47,711 nucleotides of DNA. Origin: a virus. Shown piece by piece: positions 18,682 through 46,296 of the stretch (positions are counted from its first letter, which is position 1; each line of letters starts with the position of its first letter). Under the pieces are notes generated by a model that was not told where the DNA came from, made no database searches, and worked only from the letters and a program-made list of their open reading frames with translations. The stretch is taken from positions 1 to 47,711 of IMG/VR virus record IMGVR_UViG_3300027970_000904. One strand, 5' to 3'. Both the position numbers and the translations under genes were made by a program.

Positions 18682-18753
18682 GATAAATAAAGATGTAGTT
18701 CGCGGTACTGCAAATACCCAACTACTCTAATGCTAAGAGGAGCGATCAGCATG
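18682..18753 (+). promoter_or_regulatory. Late promoter plus two-hairpin leader of homing endonuclease (copy 1)
   Basis: GATAAATA (18682-18689), then stem GTAGTT/AACTAC (18695-18700 with 18720-18725) enclosing GGTA/TACC (18704-18707 with 18715-18718), conserved TCTAAT, then TGCT/AGCG (18731-18734 with 18741-18744) with AGAGG in the loop, then ATG at 18751. Copies 2 and 3 (25901 and 45621) change both sides of each stem, which supports RNA pairing. Confidence 0.8.
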
Positions 18754-19419
18754 ACTATTTATACCCACCATCTTTATTGGATTCATCTTCCAGAGCATAC
18801 TGACTACACTAAGGAAGGGTACATAGGCGTTTCTAATAACCCAGCCAGACGACTTTACGAGCATAAGAATGATTCTAAAAACCGCAACGACAAAAATCCT
18901 TATTTCGGTAGAGTCCTCAAAAAACATCAAGATAAAATAATCCAAACAATATTGTTGACCGACACCAAAGAAAATTGTTACAGACAAGAGGAAATACTAA
19001 GACCTGAAAAAAACATAGGATGGAATGCTAATAAAGGCGGAACAAAACCTCCGTCTAAATTAGGCTGGAAACCAAGTGAAGATACCTTAAAGAAAAGATC
19101 AGAATCATTAGCAGGCATTCCTAGGAATGATGTTTGGCGTAAAAATTTATCAAAAGCTAAAAAAGGCGAAAGGAACGGAATGTATGGGAAAAAAATATCC
19201 TGCACCGACAAGAGAAAATTATCTATTATAGTAGCAAAATATAAAAACAGGGGCGAAAATCTAAGGTTAGCACTTGATTTGCTAGAAAAAAGCAATCACC
19301 GAATACGAGAAATTTCAAAACTAACAGGTATCTCTACTGGCGTTATATGTAAGATAAAGAAAGAAACAGAGTTATATAATTTAGCTCTTCCAATAATCAT
19401 ACAATCTAAAGCTAGCTAG
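18751..19419 (+). CDS. GIY-YIG homing endonuclease
   Basis: A 222-residue free-standing endonuclease starting MTIYTHHLYWI. The GIY-YIG domain is about residues 6-90, with YWI...GYIGVSNNPARRLYEHK and the catalytic Glu in RQEEIL. NUMOD-like and helix-turn-helix DNA-binding segments follow (WRKNLSKAKKGERNGMYGKK; IREISKLTGISTGVICKIKK). An in-frame ATG at 18730 is rejected because the two sister leaders place the start at 18751 after AGAGGAG. The 3' end overlaps the convergent uvdE-like gene by 39 bases, a sign of insertion next to it. Confidence 0.9.
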   Translation: MTIYTHHLYWIHLPEHTDYTKEGYIGVSNNPARRLYEHKNDSKNRNDKNPYFGRVLKKHQDKIIQTILLTDTKENCYRQEEILRPEKNIGWNANKGGTKPPSKLGWKPSEDTLKKRSESLAGIPRNDVWRKNLSKAKKGERNGMYGKKISCTDKRKLSIIVAKYKNRGENLRLALDLLEKSNHRIREISKLTGISTGVICKIKKETELYNLALPIIIQSKAS

Positions 19420-20397
19420 GTTCTTGGCCTTTGCCTCCACCATAACATCTGCCCAATCCCAGTGCCCTTTAGCCCAATCATTGACTGCTTTATTCCACAT
19501 ATAGTCAGAATGTGCCCGCAACTTCTGCTTGTTCAACCCTTGTTCTAGCAGAAGTTGAAGGTTAGGCAATTCATTAGTAAGATGTGATGACAAATATTCT
19601 TCACGACTTACACTGTAATGAATGACAGGACGTACACCACGCCAGCTATCGATCACGCGCTTGATACGGTCGTCATTGGGTTCGATATATTCACCAGTCA
19701 TTACATAGTGATGATGGATATCTAGTACGAGAGCGCAGGTATCAGCGAGTTCTAGACTGCTATCGATACCCCAAGTCATCTCGTCATTCTCGATAGTGAT
19801 GCAATTACGAGCCTCGGGGCTTAGTCGAGACATTACCTTCTTGATACCGTCGGGGCCCTGACGACCACTGATATGAACATTGATCTTCATGTCCTGAAAA
19901 GTCTTGCCATAGCCCATCCAACGTGCCATGTCAACATGATATTCGAATTCTCGGATACTGTTTTCTACGACTTCTTCGCGATCACTAGCAAGGACTACAA
20001 ATTGATCGGGATGAAATGATAGACGGACACTGTTCTTGCGTGCAGTCTCACCAATCGGAGCCATCCAACGTGCTAGACTGTCTTGCACATCTTGCCGCGA
20101 CCAAAAATAATGATAATCGGGATGCGTGTAGAAACTCAACATATCACTGGTGATACGCAACATGCGTAGTTCGACAGGAAGAGTCGCAATTTTTTTGACG
20201 AGTGCGTGAGTGTTTAGGATGTTACGCTTTGCGACATCTAGGATCTTTTCTTCGACCACACGTGAGTTGTTCTGACGTTTTGCCCATGCGAGTGTGGTAC
20301 CGCCTGTATTGAATCCATCGACACTAGCGATCTCACCCTTAGTATTGATTTCTGCAAACTTACATGCGAAACCAATTCGTTTGACACCATCATTCAT
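19381..20397 (-). CDS. UV-damage endonuclease (UvdE/UvsE family)
   Basis: A 338-residue TIM-barrel repair nuclease. It begins RIGFACKFAEIN and has LRITSDMLSF, VRLSFHPDQFVVLAS, ITIENDEMTWG, ALVLDIHHHYV and VIHYSVSREEY, the metal-binding His/Glu/Asp segments of UvdE. The enzyme nicks DNA 5' of UV photoproducts. T4 instead uses the DenV glycosylase, so this phage has a different repair route. No clear ribosome-binding site is seen; divergent from the GP88-like gene, whose late box lies 5 bases upstream. Confidence 0.9.
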   Translation of the reverse strand: MNDGVKRIGFACKFAEINTKGEIASVDGFNTGGTTLAWAKRQNNSRVVEEKILDVAKRNILNTHALVKKIATLPVELRMLRITSDMLSFYTHPDYHYFWSRQDVQDSLARWMAPIGETARKNSVRLSFHPDQFVVLASDREEVVENSIREFEYHVDMARWMGYGKTFQDMKINVHISGRQGPDGIKKVMSRLSPEARNCITIENDEMTWGIDSSLELADTCALVLDIHHHYVMTGEYIEPNDDRIKRVIDSWRGVRPVIHYSVSREEYLSSHLTNELPNLQLLLEQGLNKQKLRAHSDYMWNKAVNDWAKGHWDWADVMVEAKAKNLASFRLYDYWKS

Positions 20398-20400
20398 AGA

Positions 20401-20408
20401 TAAATACT
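20401..20408 (+). promoter_or_regulatory. Late-type promoter (GATAAATA) of the GP88-like gene
   Basis: GATAAATA lies about 25 bases before the ATG at 20431, with AAGGAA seven bases before the start. It fits the T4 late consensus at seven of eight positions. Confidence 0.6.
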
Positions 20409-20430
20409 CTCATAATATAAGGAACCGTTA

Positions 20431-21657
20431 ATGGATATTCGTAACATCTTAGATATCATAAGTGAAAATTCTCGGCCTGTCAAGCAAAAAACACCTGTTT
20501 CGGGTGGGTTGCCGGCGATGTCTCTTGAAGATTTTCTTCTCAGTGCAGGGGTAAACCCACAAGAAGTAGAAATTGACGAAGCAAAATTAGCGGCCCCCGC
20601 AAGACCTTTTCCAAAAGACGAATTAACAAAATACTTAAGCAGGACTGTAGGTACCGATACAGGCAAGGTCAACAAAGCAGGCGGCAAGATTCGCAAGAGT
20701 GAAAAGACTAAACAAGATAAGTTCAATATGCCATACATTCATAATAAGAATGTTCCCATCGTCGATGAAGCAAATAAAGAATATGATCTAGAAAAGCTAA
20801 GAGCTATGATTACCAAACGTCCGGCAAAAGTTCTCAAGCAAAATGAAAAGATGCAACATAGTGATGGTACTGCTAGTGCGTTTTACAACATTGGACTTCC
20901 TGCTCTGAAAGGCCTAGCAGTTGATGAAGATACCGGTGAGTTCGTGATCATTGACACTTGTCCTGGCGCCGGCGAATGCCAGACATATTGCTATGCAATG
21001 AAAGGTGGCTATATCATGTGGACGAGCCCATCACTCGAACAGTCTAAGCTATTGAACTTCTTGTATAATGATCCGCAAGGATTCATGGATATGCTAGGAA
21101 ACGAGATCGAAGAACAATATAAAAAGCTAAAAAAAGTCGATAAGAAGAAAGGTACTGAAACTAAACTTATCATTCGTTGGCATGATGCTGGTGATTTCTT
21201 CTCACCGGAATACCTTAACTATGCGTATACCTTAGCTAAGAAGTATCCTGACGTATCTTTCTATGCGTATACTAAATTAGCAAACGTTGCTCAAGGTAAA
21301 TCTCCGGCTAATTTTAAAATGAATTACTCGATGGGCGCGAAGCCCAAAGAAGAACAACAGATCGATTTCGCAACTACTAAGAATAGCCGAGTTGTTCCTG
21401 AAGTATTATTCAAAGACGTTCTTGATAGGGTAGAAGGTAAGCTCGTATATAAAGATCAATCATCGATCAATGTATTGAAGGCTCGAATCGCTGCTAAATA
21501 TAGTGTCAAGCCTAATACAATATTGACCTATGACGAGATGATGAAGAAGCCAGTCAGTAATGAAAAGGGTAAGTATAATGTCATTGTTAAACCGGGAGAC
21601 GGAGATGACTCTGCTAACCGCAATGACGTGCTTAACACATTTCTATTAATGCATTAG
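20431..21657 (+). CDS. GP88-like protein with capsid-targeting-like N-terminus
   Basis: A 408-residue protein. MDIRNILDIISE ends in I-S-E before Asn, like a prohead-protease site. The main domain has CPGAGECQTYCYAMKGGY, SPSLEQSKLLNFLYND, IIRWHDAGDFFSPEYLNYAY and SFYAYTKLANV, the pattern I recognise from the phage GP88 family. Cysteines in C-x5-C-x3-C could bind metal or Fe-S; function is unknown. The late box upstream and the leader suggest a virion protein. Its tail overlaps the convergent epimerase by four bases. Confidence 0.75.
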   Translation: MDIRNILDIISENSRPVKQKTPVSGGLPAMSLEDFLLSAGVNPQEVEIDEAKLAAPARPFPKDELTKYLSRTVGTDTGKVNKAGGKIRKSEKTKQDKFNMPYIHNKNVPIVDEANKEYDLEKLRAMITKRPAKVLKQNEKMQHSDGTASAFYNIGLPALKGLAVDEDTGEFVIIDTCPGAGECQTYCYAMKGGYIMWTSPSLEQSKLLNFLYNDPQGFMDMLGNEIEEQYKKLKKVDKKKGTETKLIIRWHDAGDFFSPEYLNYAYTLAKKYPDVSFYAYTKLANVAQGKSPANFKMNYSMGAKPKEEQQIDFATTKNSRVVPEVLFKDVLDRVEGKLVYKDQSSINVLKARIAAKYSVKPNTILTYDEMMKKPVSNEKGKYNVIVKPGDGDDSANRNDVLNTFLLMH

Positions 21658-22505
21658 GAAAGTTTCAACAACTCGTTAAACGAATATAGATTTTTCATAT
21701 AGGGGGACACTTCTTCTAGTACGCTACAAGATATGTCCCCTTTTCTGCGGGGTCCAATCTTTATCTTGATACCTGCTTCGTCATCATCAGAATAAATGGT
21801 TTCTGCGTTTACCATTTCAAATTTCTCAAAGATTTCCAGTACCGAATATCCTACACCATGACCCAAGCATTCTACTTTATTGGCAGGTTGCTCGATAGCC
21901 ATCTTGATTGCTTCACATACTTCGTCTACGTGAACATAATCTCGAATGCAGGTACCGTCTGGGGTATCATAATCATCACCAAAAATAGTAAACTCTTTCG
22001 TGTCAGCAGCCTTCATCAGGTTGTACATCAACCCGTCTGGATTAGTAGGAGGATAACCCGATGAACCGATCACGTTATAGAATCTAAAAATCGTATATGG
22101 CATAGTCTTATGCTGGGTACAATATTCACGAACCACATCTTCTGCTGCTCGTTTCGAGATTCCATATGCACTCTTGCAATGTTCTGCTGCACCGGTCGAT
22201 GCAAAAATAAAGTTCTGTGTCTTTACTTTATTGATTACATTCATCGTCCCATTCAAATTAGTAATATAATACTGAATAGGCATATTTTCACTCTCGCCAA
22301 CATTTACAAGTGCAGCAAGATGCACAACTATATCGAATTCTAAATCAATATTCAACGGACGATTGATATCAAGTTGAAAGAATTCCTTGACTGGATGCAA
22401 TGGCTGCCTAATGTCAAGTCCATATACTTCGTAATCTTTCTCAAGCAATTTACAAAGATGTGATCCAATGTAGCCCGAACATCCTGTTACTAATATCTTT
22501 TTCAT
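21654..22505 (-). CDS. NAD-dependent sugar epimerase (GalE-like)
   Basis: A 283-residue short-chain dehydrogenase/reductase. GCSGYIG at 8-14 is the NAD-binding glycine motif, HLAALVNVGESE follows, and YGISK gives the catalytic Tyr and Lys. IRDYVHVDEVCEA is typical of UDP-glucose 4-epimerase relatives. It is about 50 residues shorter than GalE. It is last in a six-gene minus-strand operon from the promoter at 25865-25893 and overlaps the glycosyltransferase by four bases, so it probably supplies that enzyme's sugar donor. Confidence 0.85.
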   Translation of the reverse strand: MKKILVTGCSGYIGSHLCKLLEKDYEVYGLDIRQPLHPVKEFFQLDINRPLNIDLEFDIVVHLAALVNVGESENMPIQYYITNLNGTMNVINKVKTQNFIFASTGAAEHCKSAYGISKRAAEDVVREYCTQHKTMPYTIFRFYNVIGSSGYPPTNPDGLMYNLMKAADTKEFTIFGDDYDTPDGTCIRDYVHVDEVCEAIKMAIEQPANKVECLGHGVGYSVLEIFEKFEMVNAETIYSDDDEAGIKIKIGPRRKGDISCSVLEEVSPYMKNLYSFNELLKLS

Positions 22506-23845
22506 AGTCCCTCGAATAATCCCAATCCAACCATTTCCTCAGCTGGTTCAAAGTTGGGTTCTTTAGTCAGATATGTATTGGTATCTGTATAAATCACCCT
22601 AAACTTATTCTTGTTCATCAACACCGACTTGATGTCATCGATGCATAGGATACCCCGATTCAATCCATTTATAAAATCTATGTACTTAATAGTAGTTTCT
22701 TTACAAATCTTAGCCGTATTGCTATTAGACGTTTTTGGTTTGAATGAATTGAAACACTCATTCCATTTATGGAACACTTGGCTTTCGATCTTATTCGCAT
22801 TTACCAAAGCTCCCTTAATATACCATGCTTCAGCGGTATCGAACATCTCATATGCCTCTCGCACGTCGTTTGCCATGTTTTTCTTGTCGGTTTCAAAGAA
22901 AAACTGAGAAGAAAAGTTTTGAGTCCATCGTTGATTCATTAAGCAGAAAGTAGGTAATTGCATAGTCTGTTCATAGAAAGCCATACCATAGCTTTCGACT
23001 GTGCTGGGGTTAAATGCTATCCTAGCACTCGTGATGAAGTCTACTTTTTCTTTGCCGATAATGCCCACCTTGATCTCATAAGTAGCATTGATTTTCTTCA
23101 ATCGTTCTTCAAACTTCTTAGCTCCGGCTGCGCTTGTCATTACCTTAGCTGGCAAGTTAGTCTGTTCGATCAGATCGATAAACAACTCGGGGTTCTTCCC
23201 TTCTTCCCAACGTCCAATGAACAACACACCTTCTCTAGGCTTGACGTACTGATTTAGTAATTCTTTCTCAGTTACTGGAATAGGAAGATGAGTAGCTGTA
23301 TTATCGAACTGAAGTTCATTGAACTTGCTTTGTGTACCGATAGTGATGTTATTCATCTGCAACTGCAATCGCATCATCTCATTGGTGCTATGAAAGAATG
23401 GATTCTTCGTATCTTTGAAAATCTGACTCTCAAGATGAGTATATGCGATGACCTGTACGCATTCATCAAGTCCCATAGTACTCGCTACTTGAATAGTTTC
23501 ATAGGTATTACATACTAGTACGTCATAGATGTTGGTAGTGAATGCTTTAACGATAGCATTACGGAAATTGGCCATTCTTTCATAGCAAAAACTATCTTCA
23601 TACATAAAGATAGCACTATGATCGGTATACTTGAGTGGGATGTCTGGATAGATCACCCTAGCATCGAATGATTCTAAGAACTCTGTGCTAAGTCCTTGCG
23701 GAGCTTTGTCGGTTATGATATCTACTTTAATTCCATGACTATTCATCGTTTCACAGAAACTCTTAGCGAACTGTCCTATTCCGCCGTGTGGAATTAAGGT
23801 CTGAGAACTGACTAGAAATCCAATACGTTTGTTATAGGTATTCAT
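22502..23845 (-). CDS. GT4-type glycosyltransferase
   Basis: A 447-residue GT-B enzyme. The N-terminal domain has the donor/acceptor loop HGGIGQFAKSF, and the C-terminal domain has VLFIGRWEEGKNPELFIDL and FNPSTVESYGMAFYEQTM, the E-x7-E nucleotide-sugar motif of family GT4. A C-terminal extension of about 90 residues is unusual. It is coupled to the epimerase gene. The target could be DNA, a capsid protein or a host envelope sugar; nothing in the sequence decides this. AAAGGTAAAAT precedes the start. Confidence 0.85.
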   Translation of the reverse strand: MNTYNKRIGFLVSSQTLIPHGGIGQFAKSFCETMNSHGIKVDIITDKAPQGLSTEFLESFDARVIYPDIPLKYTDHSAIFMYEDSFCYERMANFRNAIVKAFTTNIYDVLVCNTYETIQVASTMGLDECVQVIAYTHLESQIFKDTKNPFFHSTNEMMRLQLQMNNITIGTQSKFNELQFDNTATHLPIPVTEKELLNQYVKPREGVLFIGRWEEGKNPELFIDLIEQTNLPAKVMTSAAGAKKFEERLKKINATYEIKVGIIGKEKVDFITSARIAFNPSTVESYGMAFYEQTMQLPTFCLMNQRWTQNFSSQFFFETDKKNMANDVREAYEMFDTAEAWYIKGALVNANKIESQVFHKWNECFNSFKPKTSNSNTAKICKETTIKYIDFINGLNRGILCIDDIKSVLMNKNKFRVIYTDTNTYLTKEPNFEPAEEMVGLGLFEGL

Positions 23846-23854
23846 ATTTTACCT

Positions 23855-24709
23855 TTACGTTCCCCAGCGGTTACCAAACAAAGGTAGATGTAGTCGATCA
23901 CTATATCTGACACCATACTTCATTGCTAACTCGGCAACTGTAAGGTTATTCAATTGATATACACTCTCTACTCCACCGACGGGCATGAAATATACAGGCC
24001 CCTCAAAACCCTCATCACGATATAGCTTAGATACTTCAAGTGCTTCCTGAGCATCTTCTTCTGTAGAGATCACAAACTTGAGGTATGCATAGCCAAATTT
24101 CTCATATTCACGCACAACCTTAGGTTTGATCGCACTCTTATGAGACTCACCGGAACAACTTAACTTAGGACTGACGCTAAAAGTGATTTCTCGTTCAAAT
24201 CCCGGATATACTTCTGGCCAGCTCCAGTCTTCAAGATAGTGTGCGAACTCAGGTGAAAGTTCCTGTGTACCATTAGTCTCAAAAGTAATCTCTTTGAGAC
24301 CCGCCATCTTAGGATGACTCAAGAGTTTTGGGAAAGCTCGCTGCCATCCAAGTAGTGGTTCTCCTCCTGTGATGACAAGATGTTCGTTTTTCCATTCTTT
24401 AAACGGTAGTAGTTCCATGATGTCATCAACAATGGTATCAATGTCCTTACTAGGAGAAAGATGCTTAAATCGAGGGTCCCATGAGGCGTAAGAATCGCAA
24501 CCAGTGGTGACGAGTGGGAGAGAATTGTAATCTTTGTAAACTTTCGGGTCGATCTTTTTCCGTTCAACAGACGTTTCTCCCTTAGGCATACCAAATCCTC
24601 CACACGTGAAGTTGCAGCCAAACGTTCTTAGGAAAATGCTAGGTACGCCTTGATACCTGCCTTCACCCTGAATAGAATAAAATAGTTCACTAATCTTGAT
24701 TTGCGTCAT
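23855..24709 (-). CDS. queE: 7-carboxy-7-deazaguanine synthase QueE (radical SAM), variant cysteine motif
   Basis: A 284-residue radical SAM protein. YSIQGEG near the start and TGGEPLL are QueE hallmarks, followed by FETNGT and SVSPK. The cluster cysteines are Cys32, Cys36 and probably Cys71 (TTGCDSYASWD), so a loop of 34 residues separates the second and third Cys instead of the usual two. Similar variants occur in phages. QueE makes CDG, a precursor of preQ0. Together with FolE, QueD and DpdA it implies 7-deazaguanine modification of DNA. Confidence 0.9.
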   Translation of the reverse strand: MTQIKISELFYSIQGEGRYQGVPSIFLRTFGCNFTCGGFGMPKGETSVERKKIDPKVYKDYNSLPLVTTGCDSYASWDPRFKHLSPSKDIDTIVDDIMELLPFKEWKNEHLVITGGEPLLGWQRAFPKLLSHPKMAGLKEITFETNGTQELSPEFAHYLEDWSWPEVYPGFEREITFSVSPKLSCSGESHKSAIKPKVVREYEKFGYAYLKFVISTEEDAQEALEVSKLYRDEGFEGPVYFMPVGGVESVYQLNNLTVAELAMKYGVRYSDRLHLPLFGNRWGT

Positions 24710-24863
24710 TGTCTCGTTCTTTTAGATATTCTTCATATGTCTTATATTTGTCGCCCGATTTGTAAATCCAACCTTCATATAAGTTATCTGGATCGTAGAA
24801 AGGAATAGAATACAAATGCCTACCATTCTTAGCATCTATATAATTCACAATTTTATTATGCAT
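24690..24863 (-). CDS. Small protein between glycosylase and queE (57 aa)
   Basis: MHNKIVNYIDAKNGRHLYSI..., 57 residues, acidic and rich in Tyr (SGDKYKTYEEYLKERDND). Its start overlaps the end of the glycosylase gene by eight bases and its stop overlaps the start of queE by 20, so the whole operon is continuously translated. No family is recognised. Confidence 0.65.
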   Translation of the reverse strand: MHNKIVNYIDAKNGRHLYSIPFYDPDNLYEGWIYKSGDKYKTYEEYLKERDNDANQD

Positions 24864-25278
24864 CTATGCATTCTTCTCTTAGGTATCGCACTAATTCTTT
24901 ATCAGTAGGTTGTACAGCATAGTTGTTCTTAAAGAAAATCTCATAACTATCACTGCCATACTTTCCTATACCATAAAGAACTTTAGCATCACTCTTGTCC
25001 CATGTCAAGTATTGATTGGACATCCTTCTAATTCGGTTTTCCCGAACAATGACTAATCCAAGCGGACGTATAACTTCATATACTTCTTCGCTCGTACTTG
25101 TCAAGAACTTCTCACATGTGTCCCATCTAGATAAGAATTCAGGAAGGACCCTTTTTACCAACAACCTATGAGTCTGGTTCAGCATGATCACCCCTACCAT
25201 ATGTTGCCACTCGGATGTAATCTGTTGTTGAACCATTAGCTCGTCACATAACGGAACGATATTCACTACTTCCACCAC
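24856..25278 (-). CDS. HhH-GPD DNA glycosylase, MBD4-like
   Basis: A 140-residue minimal HhH-GPD enzyme. LNQTHRLLVKRVLPEFL is the N-terminal helix pair. LYGIGKYGSDSYEIFF is the helix-hairpin-helix, followed by PTDKEL with candidate catalytic Asp126. This closely resembles the MBD4 glycosylase core (GIGKYGNDSY...HPEDHKL), which removes T or U from G mismatches. There is no Fe-S loop. In this operon it may repair deaminated or modified bases. It overlaps its neighbours on both sides. Confidence 0.8.
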   Translation of the reverse strand: MVEVVNIVPLCDELMVQQQITSEWQHMVGVIMLNQTHRLLVKRVLPEFLSRWDTCEKFLTSTSEEVYEVIRPLGLVIVRENRIRRMSNQYLTWDKSDAKVLYGIGKYGSDSYEIFFKNNYAVQPTDKELVRYLREECIDA

Positions 25279-25820
25279 CGCTCCCAGGGAAATCGAATAG
25301 CGACCGGATCTTCAATTTTGTTTATGGCTTCCCCAAAATAGTCGATTCCTTCAAAATCACTTGCTTCGTTCTCTACCAAAACAGCAAACTTCACATTATG
25401 ATTCCAAACTGAATCCCAAGCTTCTTTTTGATCCGGGAAGCAGCTATTAATCCAATCTTGTTTAATCCAATCAAAGGTCATGCCGCTATCATTGATGTCA
25501 TCCACGATCAGGATATTTTTACGCTTTTTGGTATCCCAACGACTTTTTATGACAGGGCGATCATCCGACGAAACATACCCAAATGCATCTTCAGACATCC
25601 AGGCATTTAGTTCAGTATCAGGGGGATCGCTGCGCAAACTGACTTTTAGTGTATGCATTGGAATATTCAAATAATGGCTAATCATTAGAGCAGGAACTAA
25701 TCCTCCTCTGGTAATGCCTACAACATAATCAGGTCGAAACTGGTCTACAGTAATCTGTCTTATGATGTTATGAACCATACCGTCAATCTGTTTGTCAGTG
25801 TAATATACTTTCTTAGTCAT
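25266..25820 (-). CDS. Phosphoribosyltransferase (type I PRTase)
   Basis: A 184-residue enzyme. ILIVDDINDSGMTF (113-126) is the PRPP-binding motif, VVGITRGGLVPALMIS is the PP-loop, and the C-terminus is Trp-rich (RFPWERWWK), as in xanthine/guanine PRTases. It probably salvages a purine base by adding ribose-5-phosphate. First gene of the operon from the promoter at 25865-25893. A 20-bp tandem duplication covers the start codon, so a short upstream frame MTKKVYND precedes the true start. Confidence 0.85.
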   Translation of the reverse strand: MTKKVYYTDKQIDGMVHNIIRQITVDQFRPDYVVGITRGGLVPALMISHYLNIPMHTLKVSLRSDPPDTELNAWMSEDAFGYVSSDDRPVIKSRWDTKKRKNILIVDDINDSGMTFDWIKQDWINSCFPDQKEAWDSVWNHNVKFAVLVENEASDFEGIDYFGEAINKIEDPVAIRFPWERWWK

Positions 25821-25840
25821 TATATACTTTCTTAGTCATT
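25801..25840. repeat. 20-bp tandem duplication over a start codon
   Basis: TATACTTTCTTAGTCATTA is present twice in tandem at the 5' end of the phosphoribosyltransferase gene. The unit is 20 bases, not a multiple of three, so the upstream copy gives an eight-codon frame whose stop overlaps the real start region. Confidence 0.85.
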
Positions 25841-25864
25841 ATATACTTTTTATATCAATAAATT

Positions 25865-25893
25865 ATTATATACTATTTAGGTTAGGTTGTCAA
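25865..25893 (-). promoter_or_regulatory. Perfect early promoter of the PRTase-to-epimerase operon
   Basis: Minus strand TTGACA-17-TATAAT, all twelve positions consensus. The plus-strand late promoter of the GIY-YIG-like gene begins eight bases to the right. Confidence 0.9.
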
Positions 25894-25900
25894 GAAAAAA

Positions 25901-25971
25901 GATAAATAAGCGTGAGTCACGGAACTCCCATTCCCACTCACTCTAATAGTTGAAAAGGAACTACCAGCATG
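25901..25971 (+). promoter_or_regulatory. Late promoter plus two-hairpin leader of homing endonuclease (copy 2)
   Basis: GATAAATA (25901-25908), stem GTGAGT/ACTCAC (25912-25917 with 25936-25941) enclosing GGAA/TTCC (25921-25924 with 25931-25934), TCTAAT, then AGTT/AACT (25948-25951 with 25959-25962) with AAAAGG in the loop, and ATG at 25969. Every stem differs from copy 1 by paired changes. Confidence 0.8.
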
Positions 25972-26667
25972 TCTATTTATTCTGTCTTTACACCCTATAC
26001 TTACTTTATTATGTGGCGAGGCACCAATACCAAATATTATGGCTGTCAGTACGGCAAAAAAGCTAACCCAGAGAACATACTGACCGGTCGATATACTACA
26101 TCGTCAGTTAGTGTCAATGAACATTGGCAAAAGTACGGGCCTCCAGATATAGTTGTTATTCATCGTACTTTTACTACAGCAGCAGAATGTAGATTATATG
26201 AGCATACTTACATAAAAAGAGTAAAGGCGGTGTATAAGGAAGATTGGCTTAATAAATCCGATAGTAAAGCAATTTTAACAGACAACTACTCGGATTCTTC
26301 ATGGAAGAATAGTCACAAAAGTAGGCGGAGGCACATGGAAGAGGATCCGGAATTTCGGAAATTTATGGTAGATAGATTCGTTAACCTGATGCAATCGGAT
26401 GCAGCAAATTTAAAACGAAAAGAAACGTTCGTCCGAACAAAGCATTCGCAAGGAGAGAACAATCCTAGATTTGGTGCTATACTGACCCCTGAAATTTTAA
26501 CAAAAATCTCAGAGGCCAGAAAGAAACAATATTCTTTAAATAAATCATTGGCAAATAAGCTAAACCAAAAGAATCGTTCGTGTGAATATTGCGGCAAGTC
26601 AGGACTTAATGCTGGAAATTATAAAAGATGGCATGGAAATAAATGCAAAATAGCGGGAAATAAATAA
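25969..26667 (+). CDS. GIY-YIG-like homing endonuclease
   Basis: A 232-residue endonuclease starting MSIYSVFTPYTYFI. YTYFIMWRGTNTKYYGCQYGK resembles the GIY-YIG strand pair, with TGRYTTSS and a candidate catalytic Glu in RLYEHTYIKR. A basic helical region follows, and the C-terminus carries a zinc knuckle (CEYCGKSGLNAGNYKRWHGNKC, with two Cys, His and Cys). This class is common in T4-like phages as free-standing homing enzymes. It shares its leader and the M-x-I-Y start with two other endonucleases in the window. Confidence 0.8.
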   Translation: MSIYSVFTPYTYFIMWRGTNTKYYGCQYGKKANPENILTGRYTTSSVSVNEHWQKYGPPDIVVIHRTFTTAAECRLYEHTYIKRVKAVYKEDWLNKSDSKAILTDNYSDSSWKNSHKSRRRHMEEDPEFRKFMVDRFVNLMQSDAANLKRKETFVRTKHSQGENNPRFGAILTPEILTKISEARKKQYSLNKSLANKLNQKNRSCEYCGKSGLNAGNYKRWHGNKCKIAGNK

Positions 26668-26686
26668 TTATTCCCCACTGATTCTA

Positions 26687-27166
26687 TTATAGAAACTCGC
26701 CGTCTTCTCTATGGCCTTGCCTGTATGCCATGTTTGATGGGGTTTCTCTCACTTCTACTTTCGCACACCAAACTCTTGCAGCCTCTGCCTCGCCGCAGGA
26801 TGGAAGGAAAATAGTATTCACATATTCATACAGGTAATCTGCAAGTCCCTCGCATCCGGTCTTTTCAACCTCAATTATCTTTGCCAATCCTAATTCTCCT
26901 AGTTGCTTAATGGTATCATAGTATGGATCATCTTGGGCTAAAAGTAATACGTGGTCAAAATTATCTTCTAGGAAATCCTTAAGTGGCCGGAGCCCACCGT
27001 AATCAAAACACCAATTTCGGGCGTCAAGGTCATCGCATTCAAATTCAAATTTGAAAGACAATGCATAGCCGTGTATTAAACGACAGTGACTATCCGCTCG
27101 CCATTGCCGATACGCCAGAGGCGCAAGGTGTGAATATTCTTTAGTTGATACATATTTTTTTGTCAT
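26687..27166 (-). CDS. queD: 6-carboxytetrahydropterin synthase QueD, variant zinc site
   Basis: A 159-residue T-fold protein. The motif normally C-x-x-x-H-G-H reads C28-R-L-I-H32-G-Y34, so one zinc ligand is a Tyr. CFDYGGLRPLKDFLE and the catalytic region KVEVRETPSNMAY are as in QueD. The enzyme turns dihydroneopterin triphosphate from FolE into CPH4, the substrate of QueE. AAAGGAGA precedes the start. The HGY variant also appears in other phage QueD proteins as I recall, so it may be functional. Confidence 0.85.
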   Translation of the reverse strand: MTKKYVSTKEYSHLAPLAYRQWRADSHCRLIHGYALSFKFEFECDDLDARNWCFDYGGLRPLKDFLEDNFDHVLLLAQDDPYYDTIKQLGELGLAKIIEVEKTGCEGLADYLYEYVNTIFLPSCGEAEAARVWCAKVEVRETPSNMAYRQGHREDGEFL

Positions 27167-34998: not shown

Positions 34999-35982
34999 TT
35001 AACCGAAACTGAACAGATCACTGAATGTACTGTTAGTGTTAGTATCTGTTCTGATATCCCAGTCAAGTACACCTAATAGGTTATCGATTTTCTCATCGAC
35101 TAGCTTACGTTCCATTTCATTATCATCAAAAGGAAGTTCAAGGAACCATTGTGGTAGCCTAAGCTCATCAGTTGGATATGCAATCGAAGTCAACCCTAAT
35201 GGATTTGATTTGAGAGTACACACAACAACCTTCATACCATCTACGATCTTCTGACTATACTGGTCACCGTTCATCTTACGCAAGTAGTTATAATTGATAG
35301 CAGCTTTCGCATGTCCAACACTACACTGACCGGTCTTCTCATACTTGATCGTATGTTTAGTAAGATTGTTAACTGACTTAGGAGAACCTTTAGTCCAACT
35401 ATCTTGTTCAGAAAGCCAAGTCTTGAATTCTCTGATCTTAGTGATAACTTCGGCGCGAGGAACGCCACCCAATACCTGCTCAAGTACTTCCATCAAGAAC
35501 GTCTGAACATACTTAGGAGTATCTGCTCGTTTCAAGTCAAGACCCATAGCCTTGATCTCACCCATCTTACCATTCACATCTTTACGCTTGCCTTCTTTAT
35601 CAAAGATATTGATTGCATAACGCTTCTTTGTGATGAATAGAGTACGATCCCCGATCAGTTCACGACCAGCTTTGATGATCTCACCGTTCTTGCGGGGACA
35701 ATGAAATGCCTTCTCCATGAAGCCTGGAAAACTATCGTTTGCGATATCAGCAATATTATCGTATAATTGGATGCATACTTCCTTGTTCCATTCAATCTCA
35801 CCCTTATCGATCTGTGGTTTGATCGCGTGATATGCACTGAAATAACAGCTATCAGTGTTATGAACTAGGATATCATTTGCAAAGAAAAACGGATCACTAT
35901 CTACAATACTCAAGTCGTATACATAGTCATCAACTTCACCAAGACATTCTACCTTTTTTATTTTTGTCCACTCTGCATCCAT
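34999..35982 (-). CDS. DNA polymerase, C-terminal half, preceded by a split-intein C-fragment
   Basis: Residues 1-42 are an intein C-fragment: DDYVYDLSIVDSDPFFFAND is block F, and ILVHN ends before Thr43. Extein sequence starts TDSCYFS, completing YGD-TDS, the metal-binding motif C of family B polymerases. ITKKRYAINIF is the conserved KKRY motif, and the thumb domain ends at 327. Adding the N-half gives about 901 residues (T4 gp43 898, RB69 903). The start lies within the endonuclease gene end (25-base overlap), coupling their translation. Confidence 0.93.
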   Translation of the reverse strand: MDAEWTKIKKVECLGEVDDYVYDLSIVDSDPFFFANDILVHNTDSCYFSAYHAIKPQIDKGEIEWNKEVCIQLYDNIADIANDSFPGFMEKAFHCPRKNGEIIKAGRELIGDRTLFITKKRYAINIFDKEGKRKDVNGKMGEIKAMGLDLKRADTPKYVQTFLMEVLEQVLGGVPRAEVITKIREFKTWLSEQDSWTKGSPKSVNNLTKHTIKYEKTGQCSVGHAKAAINYNYLRKMNGDQYSQKIVDGMKVVVCTLKSNPLGLTSIAYPTDELRLPQWFLELPFDDNEMERKLVDEKIDNLLGVLDWDIRTDTNTNSTFSDLFSFG

Positions 35983-36920
35983 GCTTTCACCTTATTAATT
36001 GTATTTTGTTTATCTAATTTAAATTCAGATTCCCACACCGTATACGTGCGAAACCCAAGATCAGTTGCTGTCTTCAATTTTTTACTATCATATTCTTGAA
36101 TCTCTAATGCAGTACGACCCCGAATAACTGCATCATTTTTATATAAAGACGGATTCGCATGCCAGTAATCACCGTTAAATTCAATTATACAGTCTTTGTG
36201 TTTTATATCGTATATCACATATGTTCCTAAGAAAGAAGACCATCTTCCGTAGGGTCTAGTAAACGTAGTATACTCTAATGATCCATAATTGTCAATCAGC
36301 ATGGTCGTAAATTCTTTTTCTATGTTGGAACCCCAAATATTACCGGGATATACTACCCGGTTTAAAATTAGTGTGACCGCTTCATCAAGGGATATTCCCA
36401 ATTTAGTTGCTACTAATTGCGGATTAAATGAGCTACCTTTTTCGATATTTAACTGTAGAAATCTAGACGTACCCTCTTCAGTTCCATACTTGTTAACGAA
36501 ATAGGTTTTACTATTGGTGTATGCTTGTCGTTCACAATACGCTAGCCACTTAGTAGTACCTAACTTTTCCCCATGACGGGCAATCATTTTTTCTAAGGTC
36601 TGTGCCCTAGACGAATTATACTCATTATACTGTTCAACTGTCCATCCGTGTTTTTTACGTTTGTACTCAAATGAATTAGAATCCGCTTGTTTAACTTTGT
36701 ATTGGTTCCATCGAATCGTACCCTCTTCTATCCCATACTTTTCAATCAATCTCTCTTTTGTAATAGCCGTTTTTGCGGCAACATCCGCTGATACTAACAC
36801 GGCTTGAGGATATGCCAACTTGTATTCTTTGGAATTAGAAAATTTACCTGTGCAGTTATACTTAAAATGAGTCCACTGTAGTCTACTAGTTTCCATTCCA
36901 CATTCTAAACACTTTATCAT
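35958..36920 (-). CDS. Vsr-like homing endonuclease between the polymerase halves
   Basis: A 320-residue endonuclease. A zinc-knuckle start (CLECGM) is followed by several repeats of the type KYGxEEGTxRW, then the nuclease domain: YVIYDIKHKDCIIEFNGDYWHANPSLY and LGFRTYTVWESEF, as in very-short-patch-repair-type enzymes of split-intein loci. Unlike its relative in the ligase locus it is intact. A CATAAATA late box (36944-36951) and a 9-bp hairpin with GGAG as its loop (36921-36942) lie directly before the ATG. Confidence 0.9.
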   Translation of the reverse strand: MIKCLECGMETSRLQWTHFKYNCTGKFSNSKEYKLAYPQAVLVSADVAAKTAITKERLIEKYGIEEGTIRWNQYKVKQADSNSFEYKRKKHGWTVEQYNEYNSSRAQTLEKMIARHGEKLGTTKWLAYCERQAYTNSKTYFVNKYGTEEGTSRFLQLNIEKGSSFNPQLVATKLGISLDEAVTLILNRVVYPGNIWGSNIEKEFTTMLIDNYGSLEYTTFTRPYGRWSSFLGTYVIYDIKHKDCIIEFNGDYWHANPSLYKNDAVIRGRTALEIQEYDSKKLKTATDLGFRTYTVWESEFKLDKQNTINKVKAWMQSGQK

Positions 36921-36951
36921 ATGCTGATACTCCTATCAGCATATATTTATG
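36921..36951 (-). promoter_or_regulatory. Late promoter and hairpin with GGAG loop
   Basis: Minus strand CATAAATA (36944-36951), then a perfect 9-bp stem ATGCTGATA/TATCAGCAT (36934-36942 with 36921-36929) whose four-base loop is exactly GGAG, the ribosome-binding site. The stem abuts the ATG at 36920. Confidence 0.85.
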
Positions 36952-36953
36952 CG

Positions 36954-39152
36954 TTATGGCACAAAAGTAATAATTCCATCAGTTTCAAGAATTTCATTAG
37001 GTTTACATTCTACTAAGAATCCATCCCGATCGACCATTATACTATGATCTTCAGTGACAGTTACCTGTTTCCCGTTCTCTGTTGTGATTTTATAAAGTTT
37101 TTTCCTAGTTTTATGTCGCATAACGTAACTAATTTTTGCCCCAGTAGGTTGCATATCATGTGAATTAAATCCAAGCACAGTGGAATCATTCCATACTCCA
37201 TACTCTTTTTCACCCACAACTGAATGCTCAATGCACTCATCAAAAAGTTGCGCTATTGTTTTATCACCATCGGTTGTTCTAATAATAGAATCACCAGTAA
37301 CACTGTCACCGTATACGATTGCATCACCGTCATGTTGATATTTTTCGGTGATAGTCTCGTTGATCTGACTCATCATGTGCTTTACGATCTGTCTACCGGA
37401 CAACGTAACTGACTGCCCGATACGCTTATCATAGAACCTACAATGCTCATTGAGAAGCGCGCCGTATGCAGAGTTAAGCAAAATCTTACGAACAAGCTGT
37501 CGCTTGTCATAATATTCGTACATATCAGTGCCATACGCTTCTTTAGCTTGCTTCTGAAGTATTTTACGTTCAGAATACCAACGTGAGAGCAATCCGGGAA
37601 TAATGCCTTCTTTCTCATAGGTAAAGATGGTCCCGTTCGCCGATAGCATATAAGGCTTGTGACTATCAAAAATCATCTTCCAAATTTCAGCAGCAGACAT
37701 CTCTTTTGATCGACCATCTTCATAATCGATGGTGAGCATAGTGCCGCGTTCTTGGTTCATGATAGCGGTATATTCTAATGAACCGAATAGGTTTTCCCAA
37801 AGAATAGCACCAATCACAGCTTCTGCATCGTCGCCGTTCTTTTTCTTACGCTTTTCTTTAGCAAGAGCAATACTCTTTTCATGCATATACTGATCAGTAA
37901 GTGTTTGACGAACCTGCCCGATAATAGTTTCTGGAGCCATGTTAAGGGCTCTGATGGCAGAGGGGTAGAGTGAGTTGATATCAACTGCGCCGACGTATTC
38001 GTGAATCCCCGTCTTCGGTACAGCAACATATGCACCTGCTGCTTGTTGTCCGTCACTAAACGAATCCCTACGCTTCTTGTCAGGGACGATAAATCCTCGT
38101 TCATGTGCTTCATTATAAACTGCCATTTCAATCATGGCCACCGAACCCATAACAGTTGGTAGCAGTACTGTGTTTTCATGCGCTAGTGCATTCGCAAGAT
38201 CAAGAAATTTGAGTTTGTTGTGGATCTTGAATACAAGCATAGTGTCTTGCCTGTTGTATTCTACGAAAGTTTTGAAGTCTCGGTTGTACAATTGATCCAG
38301 TGTGCCCTCATACTGAGTCTTGCGCTCGCCTAGTTCATATTCACCGATAGCATCGAGTGAATAACTATGTCGTGACTCGTAGTTATACTTCTTATACAAT
38401 TGAAGATAGTCCATATGAATTCTACCAACTAGATCATAGGTCTGTTCTTCTTTACCGAATCTCTCGTATGTGCGAGTCTTTGGTAGTTGTCCCATGAGGC
38501 AGAACTTGCGAGTATCATCTTTAGACATCACACGAGTAATACGATTTACCATATATGGAATGTCGTATCCTTCTGAGTTCCAACCAGTCAATACATCTGC
38601 ATCTTCGATCAGATCAAAAAATGTCTCGAACATTTCTATCTCACTGCGATATAGGAAAGTGTTCGGGAAATCTTTGATCAGTTCTTGGGCAGTCTCATCC
38701 GTCATGTGTTTCGGTGGAATAACTAACGTAACAAGCTGATCCAACCAATCTAGATAACAACTGATCGCTGTTACTGGATTGAATGGATCTGAAGTTGGAC
38801 TGAAACCCTTTTCAGGATCAAAGTCCACTTCAATATCGAAGAAACAAGTGTGAAGCTTTGGAGGTTCTGCTCTTAGGTAGTTTTCAGACAAACATCTGAA
38901 AATTACGTTGACATCACTTTCGAAAAGCTTTTTATTAGAATGAATCCTGCGCTCTTTTTCGAACTCACTGCGTTTACGGCTAGAGAAGCGAGTTACAGGA
39001 TCACCGTAGATAGAGCGATGCTTCCCTTTAGGATCCTGGTAATAAAGAACATAATTGGTATGATATTCTTTATACGCTCGTTTCCCGTCGGCGCCCCGCT
39101 CAACTACACGAATGCGGTCAGAATTGCTATCTAATATCGCATCAATATACAT
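36954..39152 (-). CDS. DNA polymerase, N-terminal half, followed by a split-intein N-fragment
   Basis: Residues 1-616 are family B polymerase: exonuclease motifs D106-I-E108, NSEGYD197 and Y299-x3-D303, motif A D391-INSLYPS and motif B K556-x3-NSAYG, ending in YGD616. At Ser617 an intein N-fragment of 116 residues begins (SVTGDSIIRTTDGD is block A; TVTEDHSIM is block B). This insertion site, within YGDTDS, is also used by archaeal polymerase inteins. It overlaps the dsbA-like gene by one base and is transcribed from the promoter at 39432-39459. Confidence 0.95.
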   Translation of the reverse strand: MYIDAILDSNSDRIRVVERGADGKRAYKEYHTNYVLYYQDPKGKHRSIYGDPVTRFSSRKRSEFEKERRIHSNKKLFESDVNVIFRCLSENYLRAEPPKLHTCFFDIEVDFDPEKGFSPTSDPFNPVTAISCYLDWLDQLVTLVIPPKHMTDETAQELIKDFPNTFLYRSEIEMFETFFDLIEDADVLTGWNSEGYDIPYMVNRITRVMSKDDTRKFCLMGQLPKTRTYERFGKEEQTYDLVGRIHMDYLQLYKKYNYESRHSYSLDAIGEYELGERKTQYEGTLDQLYNRDFKTFVEYNRQDTMLVFKIHNKLKFLDLANALAHENTVLLPTVMGSVAMIEMAVYNEAHERGFIVPDKKRRDSFSDGQQAAGAYVAVPKTGIHEYVGAVDINSLYPSAIRALNMAPETIIGQVRQTLTDQYMHEKSIALAKEKRKKKNGDDAEAVIGAILWENLFGSLEYTAIMNQERGTMLTIDYEDGRSKEMSAAEIWKMIFDSHKPYMLSANGTIFTYEKEGIIPGLLSRWYSERKILQKQAKEAYGTDMYEYYDKRQLVRKILLNSAYGALLNEHCRFYDKRIGQSVTLSGRQIVKHMMSQINETITEKYQHDGDAIVYGDSVTGDSIIRTTDGDKTIAQLFDECIEHSVVGEKEYGVWNDSTVLGFNSHDMQPTGAKISYVMRHKTRKKLYKITTENGKQVTVTEDHSIMVDRDGFLVECKPNEILETDGIITFVP

Positions 39153-39459: not shown

Positions 39460-39486
39460 GGTTTTTATTGAGCAGTGTGCCCAATA

Positions 39487-40832: not shown

Positions 40833-40881
40833 GCTTTTCCTTTGTTTAAATCTGACTACGATTATCGATAGTCAGTAATAG

Positions 40882-40910: not shown

Positions 40911-40962
40911 TTTTTATCGGGTGATTGGGATAATGCCGGTGCCCTTTTTGCGGTAGCCATTT

Positions 40963-40994
40963 AAAAAGTGTCTCAGTTTTCACCGAGACACTTT
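40963..40994 (-). terminator. Rho-independent terminator
   Basis: Minus strand GTGTCTC...GAGACAC stem (10 bp including AAAG/CTTT flanks) followed by TTTTTAA. It ends the late operon whose last gene stops at 41020. Confidence 0.85.
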
Positions 40995-41019
40995 CTAGTT
41001 GATAGGAACACGAATAGAT

Positions 41020-41346: not shown

Positions 41347-41363
41347 GTCTTAATCCTTTGTAT

Positions 41364-41371
41364 TATTTATC
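41364..41371 (-). promoter_or_regulatory. Late-type box before the 108-residue gene
   Basis: Minus strand GATAAATA about 17 bases before the ATG at 41346; AAGGA lies between them. Together with the sigma70 site at 41402-41430 this gives early plus late control. Confidence 0.6.
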
Positions 41372-41401
41372 AAAGTGAAGCGAAATGCTCTTAGTAAATT
41401 T

Positions 41402-41430
41402 ACTATAGCAAACTTAGTTTCCGAAGTCAA
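41402..41430 (-). promoter_or_regulatory. Early promoter
   Basis: Minus strand TTGACT-17-TATAGT, with TTTGC before the -10 as at 1670-1698. Confidence 0.7.
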
Positions 41431-41906: not shown

Positions 41907-41909
41907 TGT

Positions 41910-44113: not shown

Positions 44114-44124
44114 GTCTAGCCTTT

Positions 44125-45144: not shown

Positions 45145-45146
45145 TG

Positions 45147-45587
45147 TTATGCCCTTGCAGTCTTTAGGATACTTCTAAGCATCCATACTTTTTTAGAATA
45201 TAAGTCTTGTAAATCCGCCATGTAGTTAGCTATCCCTTGCTCTCGGGTTTCAGTAGCAACGTCAAATATAGTTTTCACTAATTCAACCATATCAGATGAA
45301 TCACTCAACAATTCTTCAAACATCAAAGCCGCTCGCGGTATTTTATGTTGTTCCCGTACTATACTAAGTTCCAATAGGCGAGACAGGTTACCTGGAGTAT
45401 AGGAATCTAGTGAGCGTATATGCTCACCCACCGTGTCGATTGATTCATATACCTCTGAATAGAATGAGCCTAGAAACTCATGGTATTGTGGGAAATCACT
45501 ACCTTCAACATTGAAATGGAAACCGTGTATCTTAGTGTACAAGACAAACGTGCTTCCTAACAATGTTTTTAAGTCATCTACTAACAT
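45147..45587 (-). CDS. Dps-like ferritin
   Basis: A 146-residue four-helix protein. His24, His36, Asp51 and Glu55 have exactly the spacing of the E. coli Dps ferroxidase ligands (12, 15 and 4 residues apart) within HFHFNVEG...HEFLGSFYSEVYESIDTVGEHI. Dps shells oxidise iron and protect DNA. A GATAAATA late box and AAGGATAA precede the ATG. It heads an operon of putative head-packaged proteins, so protection of DNA during entry is possible. Confidence 0.9.
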   Translation of the reverse strand: MLVDDLKTLLGSTFVLYTKIHGFHFNVEGSDFPQYHEFLGSFYSEVYESIDTVGEHIRSLDSYTPGNLSRLLELSIVREQHKIPRAALMFEELLSDSSDMVELVKTIFDVATETREQGIANYMADLQDLYSKKVWMLRSILKTARA

Positions 45588-45605
45588 TACTTTATCCTTA
45601 TGTAG

Positions 45606-45613
45606 TATTTATC
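45606..45613 (-). promoter_or_regulatory. Late promoter of the dps operon
   Basis: Minus strand GATAAATA about 18 bases before the dps ATG, divergent from CATAAATA of the HNH gene at 45621-45628. It should drive dps and the coupled late genes down to 41427. Confidence 0.65.
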
Positions 45614-45620
45614 ATTATGG

Positions 45621-45693
45621 CATAAATATAGATGTAGTTCGCGGATCTAGGCAATCCCAACTACTCTAATGCTATAGAGGAGCATCAGCTATG
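45621..45693 (+). promoter_or_regulatory. Late promoter plus two-hairpin leader of homing endonuclease (copy 3)
   Basis: CATAAATA (45621-45628), stem GTAGTT/AACTAC (45634-45639 with 45659-45664) enclosing GGAT/ATCC (45643-45646 with 45654-45657), TCTAAT, then TGCT/AGCA (45670-45673 with 45681-45684) with ATAGAGG in the loop, and ATG at 45691. Confidence 0.8.
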
Positions 45694-46296
45694 TGTATTT
45701 ATTGTGGTACTCAGTACCATCGCTTAATTTATGAGAATCATTTTGGACCTATTCCTTTTGATGAAGAGGATAGAAGTTACGAAATACACCACATTGACGG
45801 TAACCATAATAATAACTCGCTTGAAAACTTACAATGTGTCTCTATTAAAGAGCATTATCAAATCCATTTGAATCAAGGTGATCTTAAAGCCTGCCTTATA
45901 ATGTCTAAAAGAATGAGTTTGTCCCCGAAAGAGAAATCTAGGTTAGCTAAGATATCAAACGCCGGGCCACGCAATCCCTCATTCGGTACTATATGGATAA
46001 CAGACGGGGCAACTAATAAGAAGATACAACAAGATGATTCTATACCGATTGGTTGGATCAAAGGCCGGTCCTTTAACACCGACTTTGCTGACAAATTTAC
46101 TAAAAGAAGTAAGGTGGGTAAAAATAATCCCAGATATAACCACACACAGTATCATTTTAGAAATACAGGAACAGGTGAAGAAGTCACCCTTACCCCCGGT
46201 GAATTTTCACTTGCGTACGGAATCAACATTAAGAAAGTGCGCTGTCTGTTTCGCAAAAAGTTAGATTCAATTAAAGATTGGATTATTATTTTCTAA
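45691..46296 (+). CDS. HNH homing endonuclease
   Basis: A 201-residue endonuclease starting MCIYCGTQYHRL. Cys2 and Cys5 form the first zinc knuckle. The HNH core is YEIHHIDGNHNNNSLENLQCVS followed by a KEHYQIH helix. The C-terminal half has GxxNPRYN and HTH-like repeats typical of phage homing enzymes (NUMOD). It shares its leader and M-x-I-Y start with the GIY-YIG enzymes at 18751 and 25969, although the nuclease domain is different. Confidence 0.9.
   Translation: MCIYCGTQYHRLIYENHFGPIPFDEEDRSYEIHHIDGNHNNNSLENLQCVSIKEHYQIHLNQGDLKACLIMSKRMSLSPKEKSRLAKISNAGPRNPSFGTIWITDGATNKKIQQDDSIPIGWIKGRSFNTDFADKFTKRSKVGKNNPRYNHTQYHFRNTGTGEEVTLTPGEFSLAYGINIKKVRCLFRKKLDSIKDWIIIF

Follow-up and report, generated by a model that had tools for sequence, protein, structure and literature searches.

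The 47,711-base virus record IMGVR_UViG_3300027970_000904 (analysed as a whole, and hereafter called the window) carries three homing endonuclease or endonuclease-like genes, each preceded by a compact leader comprising two hairpins between late-type promoter boxes. The leaders belong to an extensive RNA family that shows strong covariation and matches nothing in Rfam, and there is little doubt that its conserved fold is that of the minus strand, i.e. antisense to the endonuclease gene. The fold probably represents a cis-antisense RNA that controls its own endonuclease gene, a proposal made from sequence patterns, which suggests a built-in antisense brake on mobile endonuclease genes.

The order of parts on the plus strand is the same in all three copies, i.e. 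ATAAATA, hairpin 1, TCTAAT, hairpin 2 around AGGA, and ATG. The elements, together with the genes that follow them, are located as follows.

18683-18689, plus strand: endonuclease copy 1, ATAAATA box of late promoter type, 5 nt upstream of stem 1
18693-18750, minus strand: candidate antisense two-hairpin RNA, copy 1, its presumed 5' end at 18750, running leftward
18756-18762, minus strand: ATAAATA box in inverted orientation within codons 2-4, putative promoter for antisense RNA 1
18751-19419, plus strand: endonuclease copy 1, GIY-YIG with NUMOD3
25902-25908, plus strand: endonuclease copy 2, ATAAATA box, 3 nt upstream of stem 1
25910-25968, minus strand: candidate antisense two-hairpin RNA, copy 2
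25974-25980, minus strand: ATAAATA box in inverted orientation, putative promoter for antisense RNA 2
25969-26667, plus strand: endonuclease-like gene copy 2, weak PHROG endonuclease matches (E 3.5e-5 to 2e-4)
45622-45628, plus strand: endonuclease copy 3, ATAAATA box, 5 nt upstream of stem 1
45632-45689, minus strand: candidate antisense two-hairpin RNA, copy 3
45696-45702, minus strand: ATAAATA box in inverted orientation, putative promoter for antisense RNA 3, at 6 nt from the presumed RNA 5' end
45691-46296, plus strand: endonuclease copy 3, HNH_3

These are the only three leaders of the pattern in the record: the box-plus-linker pattern has exactly three matches and the reversed pattern none, and the strong model matches in the window are the three leaders only (E 7e-20, 3e-16 and 6e-16, the next best being 0.1). 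The initial annotation had placed them correctly, and the paired stem changes that it quoted are likewise correct, as is its point that one leader is common to nucleases of different catalytic type (GIY-YIG, HNH). Its nuclease labels stand for the genes at 18751 and 45691; the gene at 25969, labelled GIY-YIG-like, has no Pfam match and weak PHROG endonuclease matches only. The element does not end at ATG, as had been supposed, TATTTAT (the inverse of the ATAAATA box) being present in codons 2-4 of all three genes. The covariance model R1 (described below) finds copy 1 with E 2.9e-16, and the minus-strand scores with a further model, R2, are 58.4 bits for copy 1, 56.8 bits for copy 2 and 72.8 bits for copy 3, the last not being independent, since copy 3 is row 1 of the alignment behind R2. 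Predicted fold energies for minus versus plus are -16.1 versus -10.7 (copy 1), -19.6 versus -12.8 (copy 2) and -19.7 versus -12.6 (copy 3). On the minus strand copy 2 forms a 9-bp P3/H2 helix, the two G.U pairs of which are A.C on plus. The leader of copy 1 contains an in-frame ATG at 18730.

The assignment of the fold to the minus strand follows from the type of non-Watson-Crick pair that is tolerated in the wider family. This is A.C when read on the plus strand, equivalent to G.U on the minus strand; were the fold that of the sense RNA, the tolerated pair would be G.T on plus. In stem 1, the 263 distinct cores give 1555 Watson-Crick pairs, 22 A.C, 1 G.T and no other mismatches; within the C-R-C internal loop, the lone inner pair gives 29 A.C, no G.T and 1 other, and P2 positions 1-3 give 9 A.C and 1 G.T. 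The TCTAAT segment, previously considered a free linker, is not one: CTAAT pairs with ATCAG or ACCAG at CAGC to form a helix, P3, which is complete on the minus strand only. P3 position 3 is A.C in 255 of the 257 cores for which P3 was counted, and its other four positions comprise 922 Watson-Crick pairs, 101 A.C, 2 G.T and 3 others, with compensatory forms including CTATG/CACAG, CTATA/TACAG, CTAGA/TCCAG and TTAAT/ATCAA. Two copies in one large genome, G009 (L331 and L335), have a longer P3 variant, CTCTAGAAC with GTTCCAGC, with the same A.C (minus-strand G.U) position. The bulged letters are constant in all 263 cores.

The strand counts were repeated on subsets with the tested pairs left free, because the search patterns had forced some letters. 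In the least biased subsets, hairpin 1 (114 copies) has 33 A.C versus 1 G.T with 2 other mismatches, and P3 positions 1, 2, 4 and 5 (80 copies) have 50 A.C versus 1 G.T, i.e. 83 versus 2 combined; P3 position 3 is A.C in 79 of the 80. Division of the copies by four arrangements of the neighbouring genes gives A.C to G.T counts of 51:2, 30:0, 10:0 and 8:0, the direction being identical in each.

Comparative and single-sequence folding point to the same strand. In a 58-row minus-strand alignment (A4), 97.7% of 1102 cells are paired and two-sided changes occur in 16 of the 19 pairs (156 cells), with none of 500 shuffles scoring as high; RNAalifold found all 19 pairs unaided (-19.9). The proposal in the initial annotation that a conserved RNA structure is present is supported. 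The rows of this alignment, and of A5, are window copy 3 and 57 of 62 selected copies (L015, L018, L061, L078 and L289 being left out), the selection being restricted to a single hairpin 1 length class and two hairpin 2 length classes, with the commonest stem type capped at 30 copies; approximately seven rows were kept though misaligned by one in inner hairpin 2. On the plus strand of the A4 rows 89.6% of cells are paired, with 97.0% in hairpin 1, and P3 position 3 is unpaired in 57 of 58; RNAalifold predicted hairpin 1 (-12.4) and not hairpin 2. Two-sided changes are again seen in 16 of 19 pairs, with 0 of 500 shuffles as high, as expected of the complement. The minus strand is predicted to be the more stable in 250 of the 259 cores for which energies were obtained, and at least two of the four outer P3 pairs are present in the minimum-energy folds of 245 of 253 antisense versus 69 of 253 sense sequences. 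Thus, the wobbles, the P3 helix and the folding energies all favour the strand opposite to the endonuclease mRNA leader, in which the structure had been thought to work; according to the predictions, the sense RNA can still form hairpin 1, though full hairpin 2 only poorly.

The extent of the family comes from four pattern-based scans of IMG/VR that differed in the parts forced; each returned at least 119-120 stretches, so that family numbers are lower bounds. The covariance model R1, built from 24 rows and applied with a cut-off of E<=0.01 to 294 of 308 non-window loci, gave the 3 window copies and at least 308 more in 294 loci, i.e. at least 311 matches from 276 sources, in agreement with the expectation that many more copies with covarying stems would be found. 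At least 272 are unique by core plus 40 nt, and at least 263 distinct cores could be parsed, 39 repeats, 3 unparsed matches and 6 repeats of a core having been removed from the 311. A first alignment, in which 123 matches yielded 86 distinct contexts (26 being dropped as chance and the rest as repeats), 76 of which were aligned, supports no count given here. When R1 was applied to 21 whole records, namely the window and 20 large genomes picked for having a copy, every record had copies, from 1 to 14 each. Four genomes of 142-361 kb (G002, G005, G006 and G014) have 12-14 copies by R1; with R2, G005 has 16, the maximum per phage genome.

The pairing of stem 1 exceeds chance in contexts selected without regard to it. 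Among 102 distinct contexts selected only on ACTCTAAT..AGGA..CAGCATG, and not on hairpin 1, a perfect 6-bp stem 1 is present in 91, with 5 of 6 pairs in 10 and 4 of 6 in 1; three of the 11 imperfect cases were judged to be chance matches. The scoring took the best of 33 placements, allowed G.T and had its last two letters, AC, fixed by the pattern, such that an estimated 1 in 10 random contexts would score 6 of 6. Stem types appear to be shared within genomes: the copies within G014, G005 and G002 (L339-L378) share stem-1 types that are rare in the pool, e.g. GAGAGC/GCCCTC-like in G014, and GCGATT/AATCGC and GTTGGT/ACCAAC in G005. The search patterns skew the pool toward GTAGTT; with that reservation, the sharing suggests concerted change or a lineage-specific partner.

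In keeping with the view that this two-hairpin form was not a recognised one, Rfam 15 gave no gathering-level matches in the window, and at E up to 10 the region 18660-18790 gave one low-scoring unrelated match, outside the hairpins. One strict pattern gave no matches in bacterial genome contigs, DNA searches of named phages gave short chance matches or none, and megablast of 18000-27000 matched no annotated phage. A protein search matched 31 named records, 10 of which were searched, together with T4 and S-PM2, using R2 with stricter filters under which weak matches may be lost. Two of these 12 have one match each, i.e. Variovorax phage V45v66 (86003-86058, E 1.4e-11) and Pseudoalteromonas phage vB_Psh_XG4 (56142-56205, E 3.8e-8), the latter located just before the endonuclease protein match of that phage and detected by the model only, not by pattern. 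With these filters, R2 had no match in T4, S-PM2 or the 8 other named records.

The element is flanked by boxes in a regular arrangement. The plus box precedes stem 1 in 252 of 263 copies, at 5 nt in 175 of the 252 and 3-5 nt outside stem 1 in 240, though it was forced in one of the four scan sets. On the opposite side, TATTTA follows CAGC in 233 of 263 copies, exactly 5 nt away in 184 of these 233, which places an inverted NTAAATA box at about codons 2-4 of the endonuclease, in all three reading frames. Relative to the ATG, 170 of 209 copies have it in the M-x-I-Y frame; the remaining 39 have it in one of the other two frames, and 27 of these preserve the 5-nt distance to CAGC exactly. In 81 copies that were fetched by a pattern comprising hairpin 1 only, the plus box is present in 79, a loose-type inverted box in 78 and Shine-Dalgarno-like letters in 78. 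In four copies (L143, L133, L172 and L156) the start codon is seemingly upstream of CAGC, which is then coding, and an AT-rich box still lies 5 nt after it.

The NTAAATA box behaves like a promoter signal in these loci, as had been proposed for the late box: within 60 nt upstream of 1693 genes called as open reading frames (ORFs) it occurs 435 times in the sense versus 91 times in the antisense orientation, peaking approximately 10-40 nt before the start. Sense enrichment of the variants before genes is 7.5x for ATAAATA, 5.4x for CTAAATA, 4.7x for ATAAGTA, 2.7x for GTAAATA and 1.8x for ATATATA. The inverted box at its modal place is ATAAATA in 154 copies, GTAAATA in 21, ATAAGTA in 11, CTAAATA in 6 and ATATATA in 5, i.e. 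it uses the three most sense-enriched variants plus GTAAATA. T4 late promoters are described as consisting of an 8-bp TATA box roughly one turn of the helix upstream of the start (PMC2988020), and we infer a 5-nt spacer from box to +1 for the present elements. With a spacing of 5 nt at each side, one RNA would begin at either end of the structured segment, each from its own box.

Two other roles for the inverted box were considered and rejected. An outer helix, ATAAATA/TATTTAT, closing the whole leader is not consistent with the TACTTAT and TATATA variants, which are unmatched by changes in the plus box. Use solely as a replacement promoter for a divergent neighbour was rejected because the box and the pairing asymmetry persist when both neighbours run with the endonuclease.

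The genes downstream of the leaders include many phage homing endonucleases, of several catalytic types. Among 149 ORFs scanned, out of 222 distinct ones of at least 110 residues, the PHROG homing endonuclease families phrog_314 and phrog_655 match 101 and 63, respectively (overlapping sets), and domains include NUMOD3 (59), HNH (16), GIY-YIG (12), HNH_5 (11), HNH_3 (8) and SegE-type GIY-YIG (6). Separately, 22 of 246 complete ORFs behind leaders are very short or broken (<90 residues), e.g. that of the minus-strand copy L048, and these are possibly decaying elements with an intact leader. Sites without the element exist: when flanks were joined with the element omitted and aligned to other loci (insertion ends being approximate), 48 of 207 gave a junction-spanning match in another locus. 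Of 14 such alignments inspected, most regain homology no more than about 30 nt from the junction. The spanning alignments imply that box, leader and gene move together as a unit, at one end of which the element lies.

Taken together, these features are best explained by a mechanism in which each element would be a compact convergent pair of late-type promoters around approximately 57 bp. The endonuclease mRNA would arise from the plus box (NTAAATA, in most copies 5 nt upstream of stem 1), and the inverted box, inside the first endonuclease codons and usually 5 nt from the conserved GCTG, would transcribe the opposite strand. The product would be a small RNA of roughly 70 nt, with predicted ends and length, laid out as 5'-G[CUGAU..GCU]-loop with CUCCUU-[AGC..AUUAG]-A-[GUAGUU G GG..]-loop-[..CC G C G AACUAC]-U-rich tail, at which transcription would terminate. 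Such an RNA would be complementary to the 5' leader of the endonuclease mRNA, the Shine-Dalgarno sequence facing the CUCCUU loop; most likely it would pair with the mRNA, block ribosome binding and lower endonuclease output, with repression perhaps becoming stronger as copies per genome rise, much as RNA-OUT of IS10 acts on its transposase. The antisense element would travel with its endonuclease gene as one mobile unit.

Some observations weigh against this proposal. As regards the strand, P2 position 4, beside the loop, is mixed (23 A.C-type versus 29 G.T-type), and the signal in the inner three pairs of hairpin 2 is unclear. As regards the inverted box, 25 copies keep the frame and not the distance (6 nt from CAGC), and protein constraint may add to its conservation, since most copies keep the M-x-I-Y frame; TATTTA is absent from 30 of the 263 copies (12 have TACTTA, 7 TATATA and 11 neither), the TATATA type being sense-enriched just 1.8x elsewhere, and the copy in Variovorax phage V45v66 has its closest TATTTA beginning 14 nt beyond CAGC. 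A relative of T4 gp55 is present in 15 of the 20 large genomes, clearly in 3 and weakly (E 5e-8 to 2e-5) in 12, and was not found in the window. An RNA starting at GCUG would cover the Shine-Dalgarno sequence and usually not the start codon, and the U-rich stretch that follows hairpin 1 does not count as separate evidence for a terminator, because it is largely the complement of the plus box and spacer. The near-invariant letters, i.e. the bulged G-Y-G and the P3 G.U, exceed the needs of plain antisense pairing, hinting at a protein or tertiary contact. Apical loops are no more different within a genome than between genomes (identical in 3 of 182 pairs versus 350 of 34453 in the pool), and the same comparison gives no support to loop diversification between the copies of one genome. 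The constant bulges, the near-invariant G.U and the lineage-specific stems leave room for a protein partner or a function in trans.

A tentative alternative along these lines, which has some plausibility, is that the RNA rather than the enzyme defines a widespread class of phage mobile elements and is their constant component. It would have its own late promoter, would have captured a range of nucleases or been captured by them, and would have lineage-specific stems and fixed bulges that are read by a phage or host protein. If so, the RNA would control all endonucleases of a genome together, several large phages having 12-16 copies, or would act in trans in addition to repressing its own gene.

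It is also possible, though rather unlikely, that the minus-strand structure is real yet acts within a leftward transcript (in processing or stability, or as a transcriptional roadblock or a terminator that shields the neighbouring gene from the insertion) or in trans on a different target or a protein. The upstream neighbour opposes the endonuclease in 142 of the 236 copies with a called neighbour and runs with it in 94; an opposed neighbour, the U-rich stretch after hairpin 1, the constant bulged Gs and near-constant G.U, and the sharing of stem types across different genes of one genome are all compatible with such a role. The asymmetry is, however, equally strong where both neighbours run along with the endonuclease (30 A.C and no G.T in 52 copies), there being no adjacent user of a minus-strand transcript, and the inverted box would create an independent transcription unit.

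That the two 5' hairpins instead work in the sense leader, stabilising late endonuclease mRNA and holding the ribosome-binding site, is less likely again. Hairpin 1 pairs nearly as well on the plus strand, the Shine-Dalgarno sequence lies within the loop of hairpin 2, part of P3 forms in a minority of sense folds, and ribosome-binding-site hairpins are known for T4 endonucleases (PMC2988022); against these points, the wobbles run the wrong way, RNAalifold misses hairpin 2 on the sense strand, and both the TCTAAT/CAGC pairing and the three-frame inverted box are left unexplained. A role of the hairpins as minus-strand single-stranded DNA, e.g. as a recombination, priming or nicking signal, is improbable: G.T would be tolerated there too, homing is a DNA process and the element is at the end of the mobile unit, but the position between two promoter-type boxes and over the Shine-Dalgarno sequence fits RNA. 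We know of no such DNA signal for these nucleases, though no search was aimed at one. Strand-specific mutation (deamination of minus-strand A and C) without structural selection could, via T-to-C or G-to-A changes on plus, yield all of the A.C states, but is scarcely credible given that P1 has no other mismatches (0 of 1578 cells in 263 cores), that two-sided changes are frequent and that the constant bulged letters are uneroded.

Were the cis-antisense reading correct, it would add an antisense layer of control for free-standing homing endonucleases to the sense hairpins, promoter timing and autorepression that a T4 review describes (PMC2988022). It would make testable how phages tolerate more than 10 homing endonucleases per genome, and the two named isolates with model matches make experiments possible. 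An inverted promoter in the coding start, in three reading frames, would also be an unusual overlap of promoter and protein code.

Boxes of the same type occur elsewhere in the window. ATAAATA lies shortly before the starts of several ordinary minus-strand genes (e.g. the boxes at 11264, 17135, 36944 and 41364) and before a GP88-family gene (20431-21657, plus strand); a further such box belongs to a ferritin-like gene (45147-45587, minus strand) that adjoins endonuclease copy 3 on its left. At 36923-36966 (minus strand), ahead of the gene at 35958-36920 (minus strand), ATAAATA is followed by a palindromic ribosome-binding-site hairpin, GCTGATA-ggag-TATCAGC, before ATG, which resembles hairpin 2 alone.

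Precedents are available both for antisense transcription at phage endonuclease genes and for hairpins in front of them. Promoters of invading endonucleases can, according to PMC2988022, create antisense transcripts, and in cyanophage S-PM2 an antisense RNA of approximately 225 nt, CfrI, runs over a homing endonuclease gene and psbA (PMC2984593; also named in PMC9602691). CfrI was the sole antisense RNA over a phage homing endonuclease found in the literature searched, most subscription papers lying outside that search. Like CfrI, as described in these sources, the present RNA would touch an endonuclease gene of a T4-like phage; unlike it, CfrI spans psbA and the endonuclease, and the S-PM2 genome (NC_006820) has no R2 match with the stricter filters. 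In seg43(25) of Aeromonas phage 25, one sense hairpin is reported directly upstream of the ribosome-binding site, which it does not sequester (PMC2988022); it is similar in lying ahead of an endonuclease ribosome-binding site, and is set apart by its description rather than by sequence.

The T4-type ribosome-binding-site hairpins reported for I-TevI, I-TevII, I-TevIII, segB and Aeh1 mobE (PMC2988022) share with the present elements a late box, an RNA hairpin at the ribosome-binding site and an endonuclease gene. In the T4 cases, as set out in the same review, it is the sense RNA that carries the hairpin, with a late promoter positioned such that late RNA omits it; by contrast, here the conserved fold is antisense and both boxes lie outside it, so that late RNA would contain both hairpins. 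A conserved sense hairpin sequestering the ribosome-binding site, as in T4, was not found, the P3 pairs forming predominantly in the antisense folds.

The closest parallel in arrangement may be RNA-OUT of IS10, a 69-nt RNA complementary to the initiation region of the transposase (PMC5006887), though no sequence kinship is shown, as there is no Rfam match. Like the IS10 RNA-OUT/RNA-IN pair, as described there, the present system would have a small opposite-strand RNA of similar length and a structured RNA encoded opposite the region where translation of a mobile nuclease gene begins, with several copies per genome. It differs from IS10 in having two hairpins, NTAAATA boxes at both sides, and endonucleases of several folds rather than one transposase.

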